DNA of 64,000 nt from Oscillospiraceae bacterium. Its GTDB lineage: Bacteria; Bacillota; Clostridia; Oscillospirales; Ruminococcaceae. Under the pieces are notes generated by a model. It was not told the DNA's origin. It made no database searches and was given only the letters and a program-made list of their open reading frames with translations. How positions within the stretch are numbered: the first letter of the stretch is position 1; every line of letters begins with the position of its first letter. A program made the position numbers and the translations under genes. The DNA lies in assembly GCA_017505635.1 (NCBI GenBank), contig JAFVOU010000016.1:1-64000 (forward strand), written 5' to 3'. Below, piece after piece: positions 10,499-13,208 of the stretch.

Positions 10499-10510
10499 TA
10501 ACATATAAAT

Positions 10511-10597
10511 ACAGGGGAGCTTGTAAGGCAGGCTGAGAAAAAGTAAGCGAACTTTGACCCTTTAACCTGATACGGATAATGCCGGCGTAGGAAGTCA
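10511..10597 (+). promoter_or_regulatory. TPP riboswitch 1 (THI box)
   Basis: All conserved THI-box segments are present in order: GGGGAGC, a short P3, CTGAGA, a P3a stem (AAAGT/ACTTT), GACCC, ACCTGAT, a CGG/CCG stem around ATAATG, and GCGTAGGAAG. It is followed within about 15 nt by an intrinsic terminator, so TPP binding should stop transcription before the thi genes. Confidence 0.95.
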
Positions 10598-10610
10598 CAT
10601 ACAGATTTTT

Positions 10611-10653
10611 TGCAGGAAGTGCCGTAAAAGGTTGCTTCCTGTTTTTATTTTTA
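10611..10653 (+). terminator. Terminator of TPP riboswitch 1
   Basis: CAGGAAG pairs with CTTCCTG, extended inwards by imperfect pairing of GCC with GGT, then TTTTTATTTTT. Confidence 0.88.
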
Positions 10654-10662
10654 CAACTTAAA

Positions 10663-10753
10663 ATGCAGGGGAGCCTGTGTGTCAGGCTGAGAGGAAGTAT
10701 TTAACTTCGACCCTTATACCTGATATGGATAATGCCATCGTAGGAAGTCAAGA
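10663..10753 (+). promoter_or_regulatory. TPP riboswitch 2 (tandem copy)
   Basis: A second complete THI box: GGGGAGCCTG, loop, CAGGCTGAGA, a P3a stem (GGAAGT/ACTTC), GACCC, ACCTGAT, an ATGG/CCAT stem around ATAATG, and CGTAGGAAG. The aptamer core is intact, so both tandem copies look able to bind TPP. Confidence 0.95.
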
Positions 10754-10766
10754 TACAGTTACTTAT

Positions 10767-10800
10767 GCGGAGATATCCATAAACGGTATCTCCGTTTTTT
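10767..10800 (+). terminator. Terminator of TPP riboswitch 2
   Basis: CGGAGATA pairs with TATCTCCG, followed by TTTTTT. Confidence 0.9.
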
Positions 10801-10843
10801 GTTGCAGTTTTTTGGAAAAGAGGTGCTGTGAAAAAGATATTTT

Positions 10844-10980
10844 AGGGCAGAGGGGGAGCGCCCTGTGCTTTTCGTAAAGCGATGGGAACCTGTGTTTCAG
10901 GGTGAGAGGATACTTTTGAGTATCGACCGCACAAAGCAAACAGCTTTGTTCAGTTAAAAATACGAAAAGAGGAAAAACAA
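10844..10980 (+). promoter_or_regulatory. Half-THI-box-like RNA leader directly upstream of thiW
   Basis: From 10881 to 10930 the sequence closely follows the first half of TPP riboswitch 2: GGG, a CCTG/CAGG stem (10889-10892/10898-10901), GTGAGAGG in place of CTGAGAGG, a GATAC/GTATC stem (P3a-like, 10909-10924), then GACC. The second half (ACCTGAT, ATAATG, GCGTAGG) is absent. In its place is a perfect 7-bp hairpin, ACAAAGC/GCTTTGT with an AAACA loop (10931-10949). CTTTTCGTA (10868-10876) is perfectly complementary to TACGAAAAG (10961-10969), the latter running into the thiW ribosome binding site (GAGG at 10969-10972). An alternative local hairpin (GCTTT-TCGT-AAAGC, 10867-10880) would compete with that closing helix. 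No terminator follows, so any control would act on translation. It is either a variant riboswitch or a degenerate third copy. Confidence 0.6.
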
Positions 10981-11703
10981 ATGAATAAAACCAAACAGAC
11001 TTTAAGAATGACTGTACTTGCTATGCTTATTGCACTTGGTGTTGTAATTTCACCATTTCTGCGTGTTGAGGGAATGTGCCCTATGGCTCATTTTATCAAT
11101 ATTGTATGCAGTGTACTTATGGGACCATGGTATTCGCTTTTATGCGCAACACTTATCGGCATAATCCGTATGCTTACTATGGGAATACCGCCTATTGCAC
11201 TTACAGGGGCTGTGTTCGGGGCTTTTTTATCTGGTGTATTTTATCGCCTGTCTAAAGGCAATATCCTTTTTGCTGCAGTTGGCGAGGTATTCGGTACAGG
11301 TATTATAGGTGCCATAGCTTCTTATCCGGTTATGTCTATATTGTGGGGTAAAGAAGGATTAAGCTGGATGTTCTATGTGCCAAGCTTTATCTGTGGAACA
11401 CTTATCGGCGGCAGTATAGCACTGGTTTTTCTTAAAAAACTGGCAGCAAACGGTATGCTTAAAAAATTTCAGGCTATGCTTACAGACAATGTTTATGAAG
11501 ATAAAACAAGCCTTATCAGCAACACAGCCTGCATTGCTGCAGTTGGTGCCATTCTGTATGTAGTTATAGAAATTCCTACAGGTATATTTAGCCTTACTTC
11601 TCCTGTATGGCATATTGTATCCAGAGGATGCATAGTTATCTCTGTTACACTTGCAATAGTTTACTTTGCGATTAATAAATTTAAAAAGGAAAAAGCAGAA
11701 TGA
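10981..11703 (+). CDS. thiW: ThiW, ECF transporter S component for a thiamine precursor
   Basis: A hydrophobic 240-residue protein matching ThiW, the substrate-binding S component of energy-coupling-factor transporters that imports the thiazole precursor (or a related thiamine moiety). The hallmark is the stretch from LRVEGMCPMAHFINIVCSVLMGPWYSLL with IIRMLTMGIPPIALTGAVFGA after it, in the first 85 residues. ThiW is usually about 165 residues. This one has an additional C-terminal part of about 70 residues with two more predicted membrane helices (about 180-205 and 215-232). The ribosome binding site is AGAGGA, 7 nt before the ATG. It is the first gene of the operon; the energising EcfA/EcfT subunits are not in the window. 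Confidence 0.9.
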   Translation: MNKTKQTLRMTVLAMLIALGVVISPFLRVEGMCPMAHFINIVCSVLMGPWYSLLCATLIGIIRMLTMGIPPIALTGAVFGAFLSGVFYRLSKGNILFAAVGEVFGTGIIGAIASYPVMSILWGKEGLSWMFYVPSFICGTLIGGSIALVFLKKLAANGMLKKFQAMLTDNVYEDKTSLISNTACIAAVGAILYVVIEIPTGIFSLTSPVWHIVSRGCIVISVTLAIVYFAINKFKKEKAE

Positions 11704-13138: not shown

Positions 13139-13174
13139 CAAGCGGCAAATCGGGAGCACCACTTTGTGTCGCTT
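13139..13174 (+). other. Imperfect hairpin between thiE and thiD
   Basis: AAGCG pairs with CGCTT, and AAA with TTT further in, across a small internal loop. No T-run follows, so it is unlikely to be a terminator. It may stabilise or process the operon mRNA. Confidence 0.3.
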
Positions 13175-13208
13175 AATAAAAATAATGCAAAAAGTAAAGG
13201 AGAAAATT

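Follow-up and report, generated by a model that had tools for sequence, protein, structure and literature searches.

The window, by which we mean the whole 64-kb stretch of DNA analyzed here, contains an operon that starts at position 10981 and has the order thiW-thiM-thiE-thiD-tenA, with thiW as the first gene and with thiM, thiE, thiD, and tenA assigned by family models. Upstream of thiW, positions 10503-10980 hold three regulatory RNAs in series, two TPP riboswitches with their own terminators followed by the element that is the subject of this report. Relatives mostly have one or two TPP riboswitches. The nearest named relatives of the window genome are Oscillospiraceae metagenome-assembled genomes (MAGs). 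The features of the locus are as follows.

10503..10610, + strand: TPP riboswitch 1, a complete THI box (RF00059, 68.8 bits)
~10613-10641, + strand: terminator-like hairpin with a U-run, 3' of TPP riboswitch 1 (from folding)
10657..10764, + strand: TPP riboswitch 2, a complete THI box (RF00059, 68.9 bits)
10767..10800, + strand: intrinsic terminator of TPP riboswitch 2 (11-pair stem and U-run)
10845-10980, + strand: the whole thiW-leader element, an uncatalogued conserved RNA
10968..10973, + strand: Shine-Dalgarno sequence AGAGGA of thiW, just 5' of the ATG at 10981
10981..11703, + strand: thiW, S component of an ECF transporter (thiazole precursor; TIGR02359, 131 bits)

A first-pass annotation, made from the sequence alone, had recognized both complete THI boxes, as the RF00059 scores bear out, and had described the third element as an almost base-for-base repeat of only the P2/P3/P3a arm of a TPP riboswitch. 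The pieces that it named lie where it had put them, namely CCTG/CAGG at 10889-10901, GTGAGAG, GATAC/GTATC, GACC, ACAAAGC/GCTTTGT, and the pair CTTTTCGTA/TACGAAAAG. It missed a 5' hairpin at 10846-10869, termed PA here, and the base of P3 is A.G rather than G-C as in TPP riboswitches. From 5' to 3', we observed the following parts.

10846..10869, + strand: PA hairpin, new and conserved (compensatory changes in all 8 counted pairs; pairing in 95% of cells)
10868..10876, + strand: 5' strand of P1, CTTTTCGTA (9 bp with 10961-10969)
10879..10888, + strand: core strand GCGAU-GGGAA (GC.A-GGGA invariant in 56/56)
10889..10901, + strand: P3 stem CCTG/CAGG with the conserved loop UGUUU (3/4 pairs covary)
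10902-10908, + strand: GTGAGAG, as located in the sequence
10903..10908, + strand: UGAGAG, the T-loop of the TPP pyrimidine (HMP) pocket, equivalent to U39-G44 (invariant in 56/56; roles from PMC3764141)
10909..10924, + strand: P3a hairpin GATAC...GTATC (5/5 pairs covary, 99% paired)
10925..10929, + strand: GACCG, with the A47 equivalent and the 3' strand of P2 (GACC at 10925-10928; ACCG invariant in 56/56)
10931..10949, + strand: variable hairpin P4', ACAAAGC/GCTTTGT (10931-10937/10943-10949), in place of the pyrophosphate arm (helix enrichment)
10961..10969, + strand: 3' strand of P1, TACGAAAAG, which extends into the Shine-Dalgarno sequence (complementary to 10868-10876)

Outside the T-loop arm, PA is the most conserved feature of the element. 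Across members, it spans about nine positions with one internal mismatch (G.G in the window) and has the loop NGAGCN in 56/56 (GGAGCG at 10855-10860 in the window). The linker between PA and the core is variable, so that 18-78 nt separate the core from the loop of PA. The core strand at 10879-10888 supplies the 5' strand of P2, the equivalents of TPP G17, G18, and G19, and the A.G partner of P3, so that P3 in the window is closed by A10888.G10902. The P3 loop has the consensus UGUUY across members, and a helix of at least 6 bp beginning beside ACCG, corresponding to P4', occurs in 84% of leaders, compared with 27% of shuffles.

We also observed, 3' of the TPP terminator and 5' of PA, a purine-rich, Shine-Dalgarno-like stretch at 10814-10825 (e.g., AAAGGAGGTG), the equivalent of which recurs in many related leaders with no conserved start codon 3' of it. 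A leader peptide translated from this stretch was considered and rejected because several loci lack a start codon after it.

For analysis of conservation, 80 thiW loci were picked from GTDB genomes by ThiW protein similarity alone, and a covariance model, R1, was built from 50 leaders. R1 detected the element in 77 of these 80 loci, with L087, L089, and L092 being the three without it, and in 5 of 20 more distant ThiW loci; on reading the leaders, we could follow the element down to about 60% ThiW identity. In whole genomes, R1 found the element in 37 of the 394 genomes sampled from the order, in 18 of 391 from the class, and in 6 of 398 in a phylum sample, four of the latter lying outside the class of the window genome; these counts exclude weaker R1 matches that turned out to be TPP riboswitches. 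Of the 20 pairs in alignment A1, 16 were changed on both sides, and 98.2% of cells were paired, a result reached by 0 of 500 shuffles and destroyed when the partner strand was slid; RNAalifold independently recovered 17 of the A1 pairs. Alignment A3, which is restricted to loci from the whole-genome R1 scans and shares some species with A1, gave similar values (97.8% paired, 16/20 pairs covarying, 0/500 shuffles). The window leader itself folds better than its shuffles (z of -2.85). The element is almost certainly a conserved regulatory RNA. The comparison of related thiW leaders that the first-pass annotation had suggested, for sequence conservation and covariation, strongly favors its reading of a variant riboswitch over a decayed copy, as does the retention of only the pyrimidine-binding half. 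No family in Rfam 15 matches the element or the related members, and the literature searched describes no TPP-half or thiW motif, with prior notice in subscription papers or supplements being possible. The thiW-leader RNA forms an uncatalogued class that is widespread in Clostridia, in tens of genera.

Few riboswitches have been studied as much as the TPP riboswitch, whose arms are commonly portrayed as two independent sensors, one for each end of TPP. The thiW-leader element is not a TPP riboswitch by the definitions that we tested. The RF00059 model, with a gathering threshold of 54.3 bits, gave no match to the window element even at an E value of ≤10. The pyrophosphate arm P4/P5 (CUGAU...GAUAAU...GCG), already reported missing from the window element by the first-pass annotation, was found in 0 of 56 members within 80 nt 3' of the core. 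The P3-base pair, equivalent to 21-38 of TPP riboswitches, is AG in 45, GA in 5, GU in 5, and CU in 1 of the 56 and is never Watson-Crick, whereas C38 is always present in the TPP riboswitches of the same loci. PA and the conserved L3 loop UGUUY are likewise additional to the TPP architecture.

What the element shares with TPP riboswitches, apart from location in thiamin operons, is the P2-P3-P3a arm with the T-loop UGAGA, the G19/A47 triple, and the G18-C48 receptor pair. TPP positions are given in E. coli numbering and were mapped onto the element by our arm alignment. The equivalents of G17, G18, G19, U39, G40, A41, G42, A43, G44, A47, C48, and C49 are invariant in 56 of 56 members; these counts use 56 model-found loci, some of whose species overlap A1, in place of 107 regex-selected elements that were biased by pattern. 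In the TPP riboswitch, U39-A43 form the T-loop that recognizes the pyrimidine, G19-G42-A47 form a triple, and A41 makes an A-minor contact to G18-C48 that together with the T-loop and triple holds the HMP ring (PMC3764141). The window element shares about 70% of its P2-P3a arm with the two adjoining THI boxes. Weak R1 matches (18 to 37 bits) numbered 73 in about 0.6 Mb and were all TPP riboswitches, 71 recognized by pattern and two by eye, and several of them align over model positions 40-84, which are the P2-P3-P3a arm. Judging from these sequence relationships, the element probably functions like half of a TPP aptamer and descended from it. The earlier label of half a TPP riboswitch holds in that only the pyrimidine-binding half is kept, but with a 5' hairpin of invariant loop added, the element is not simply a half.

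The 9-bp perfect helix between 10868-10876 and 10961-10969, noted in the first-pass annotation, exceeds chance: when the leader was shuffled with its dinucleotides preserved, a helix of this length arose in 2 of 200 sequences. Among related leaders, the linker is complementary to its own 3' region, with a mean duplex energy of -8.1 versus -7.1 kcal/mol with swapped partners (0/5000 permutations). This complementarity supports a predicted closing helix P1 and thereby the three-way junction proposed earlier, but a P1 anchored on the core GCG was not significant in the window's group (331/2000); in distant members, it was (0/2000). Because the GCG-anchored test was nonsignificant there, we place P1 of the window's group in another register, further out beside the Shine-Dalgarno sequence. 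The core GCG pairs within P1 in one group only, yet it is nearly absolutely invariant, suggesting a second role beyond P1. A possible tertiary contact is a kissing interaction between GAGC of the PA loop and GUUY of L3, both strands of which are invariant. Of the pairings between GCTTT and AAAGC that had been proposed as exclusive alternatives, the one inside the linker is missing from some same-genus members (e.g., L041 and L042).

In the near-Shine-Dalgarno group, closing P1 is predicted to make the Shine-Dalgarno sequence less exposed in 16 leaders and more exposed in 4. In distant leaders, the predicted effect of P1 was mixed, and for the window leader, the energy model gave no strong change in exposure with P1; there was no clear polarity overall, and automatic start-codon calls were often wrong. 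In the window, the element probably acts on translation, by way of P1 beside the Shine-Dalgarno sequence. Analogy with TPP riboswitches suggests that a ligand-stabilized P1 would mean an OFF switch, and a precursor signal would point to ON.

Outside the class, in L163 and L164, a terminator-like hairpin seen by eye about 100 nt upstream of thiW overlaps the Shine-Dalgarno sequence, the order after the element being the stem, GGGAG/GGAG, seven T residues, and ATG. L163 also has a promoter-like TTGACA/TATACT pair just 5' of the element.

Among the 56 model-found elements, 52 are followed directly by thiW, 2 by thiM (L114 and L155), and 2 by a PhnCDE-like transporter gene (L171 and L172), and a TPP riboswitch lies upstream of the element in most loci. 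In the window genome, ThiC and ThiG are both absent, so that this organism would have to salvage both halves of thiamin, the pyrimidine included. Among 45 element-bearing genomes, ThiC is present in 25 and a real ThiG (E below 1e-80) in 5. In the order sample of thiW-bearing genomes, ThiG occurs in 1 of the 16 that carry the element and in 14 of the 24 that lack it (Fisher P = 9e-4, uncorrected for phylogeny). Since genomes with the element mostly lack ThiG, they would depend on thiazole import; by gene content, they are mostly thiazole auxotrophs, many of which make the pyrimidine themselves.

In the two loci with PhnCDE-like genes, the element (L171:1146-1236 and L172:379-468; L180 and L181) precedes genes for a PhnD-like substrate-binding lipoprotein and PhnC/PhnE-like ABC components, with no TPP riboswitch match nearby. 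The PhnD-like protein weakly matches the p37/Cypl thiamine-pyrophosphate lipoprotein family, and the transporter may import some phosphorylated form of thiamin or a related compound.

The tandem arrangement has a counterpart in the thiS motif, an HMP-PP riboswitch that follows a TPP riboswitch upstream of thiW and thiazole genes (Atilho 2019, PMC6478431). Both RNAs stand behind a TPP riboswitch with its own terminator and before thiazole genes, suggesting the same two-input logic. Variant riboswitches with a changed ligand, as in the guanine, FMN, and guanidine-I/PRPP/ppGpp groups, similarly reuse a scaffold near related genes; in those groups, ligand-contacting parts are altered, whereas the thiW-leader element has lost a whole arm and gained a hairpin. 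We found no TPP variant of that kind in the literature searched.

We propose that the element is a riboswitch that arose from the TPP riboswitch and has as its ligand a thiamin precursor containing HMP, a reading drawn from comparative sequence evidence to which we assign a probability of roughly 0.55. By analogy, the putative ligand is most likely HMP-PP, the candidate that we favor, or else HMP or HMP-P. HMP-PP is favored because this partner is expected to accumulate when thiazole is lacking, because the unrelated thiS riboswitch senses HMP-PP from the same tandem position before thiW, and because most loci already have a sensor of TPP further 5'. The HMP pyrimidine would be held by the kept T-loop pocket of the P2-P3-P3a arm, and PA would either complete the binding site with a new half or dock on the arm in a tertiary contact. 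Ligand binding would then shift the three-way junction of P1, P2, and P4' at the thiW Shine-Dalgarno sequence or, in other lineages, act on terminator or anti-Shine-Dalgarno hairpins. With the TPP terminators ahead of it, such a switch would form a two-input gate, in which expression of thiazole import would require both low TPP and the appropriate precursor signal.

One alternative, which we regard as possible but unlikely, is that a base of the PA loop fills the T-loop, so that the RNA senses something else (HET, HET-P, or a protein) or only sets the level of expression. T-loops commonly take up intercalated bases (PMC3764141), the regulated genes are those for thiazole uptake and a kinase, and the invariance of GAGC despite the 18- to 78-nt range of distances from the core suggests docking; however, the HMP-contacting G19 and G40 and the whole triple are invariant too, which is beyond the needs of docking. 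Somewhat less probable still is a variant riboswitch whose ligand remains an end product (thiamin, TMP, or TPP) and which shuts off thiW, adding a further brake at the level of translation. A pocket identical to that of TPP riboswitches, the 16-to-4 excess of leaders with lowered Shine-Dalgarno exposure, and the preponderance of OFF switches among biosynthesis riboswitches (PMC6478431) are consistent with such a brake, but the nucleotides of the pyrophosphate arm are all gone, a second product sensor would be redundant since most loci have a TPP riboswitch upstream, and the one second switch already described from such a tandem position, the thiS RNA, responds to HMP-PP. Membership in the thiS class, which context and gene alone would allow, is contradicted by architecture and is extremely improbable, as thiS RNA is a single terminator hairpin with a conserved loop and a U-run (PMC6478431), whereas the element has three hairpins and a TPP-like core, shows no U-run after its core, and is scored by no Rfam family. 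Finally, a decayed, functionless third THI box, as its position beside two intact and similar THI boxes might imply, is refuted by an unchanged core with many compensatory changes in nearly all thiW leaders, by the occurrence of the element beyond the class, and by features common to members and absent from TPP riboswitches (PA, the UGUUY loop, and the non-Watson-Crick P3 base).

If the element is indeed a sensor of an HMP-containing precursor, it would be a naturally occurring RNA in which precisely one arm of the TPP riboswitch is retained, with its pocket unchanged across dozens of genera. The TPP aptamer could then be split and rebuilt for a precursor, which would represent a second evolutionary route to sensing thiamin precursors. 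A precursor sensor at this position also suggests how the many gut and rumen Clostridia that cannot synthesize the thiazole moiety of vitamin B1 may control when they import it.

Two further observations concern RNA structures elsewhere in the window genome. The thiE-thiD gap at 13141-13175 contains a hairpin-forming sequence with GGGAGC, which a simple pattern search did not find in relatives. A third TPP riboswitch of this genome (G000:C8:56480-56612; L183) lies near a gene for a ThiT-like membrane protein of 209 amino acids, which by eye resembles a thiamin importer.
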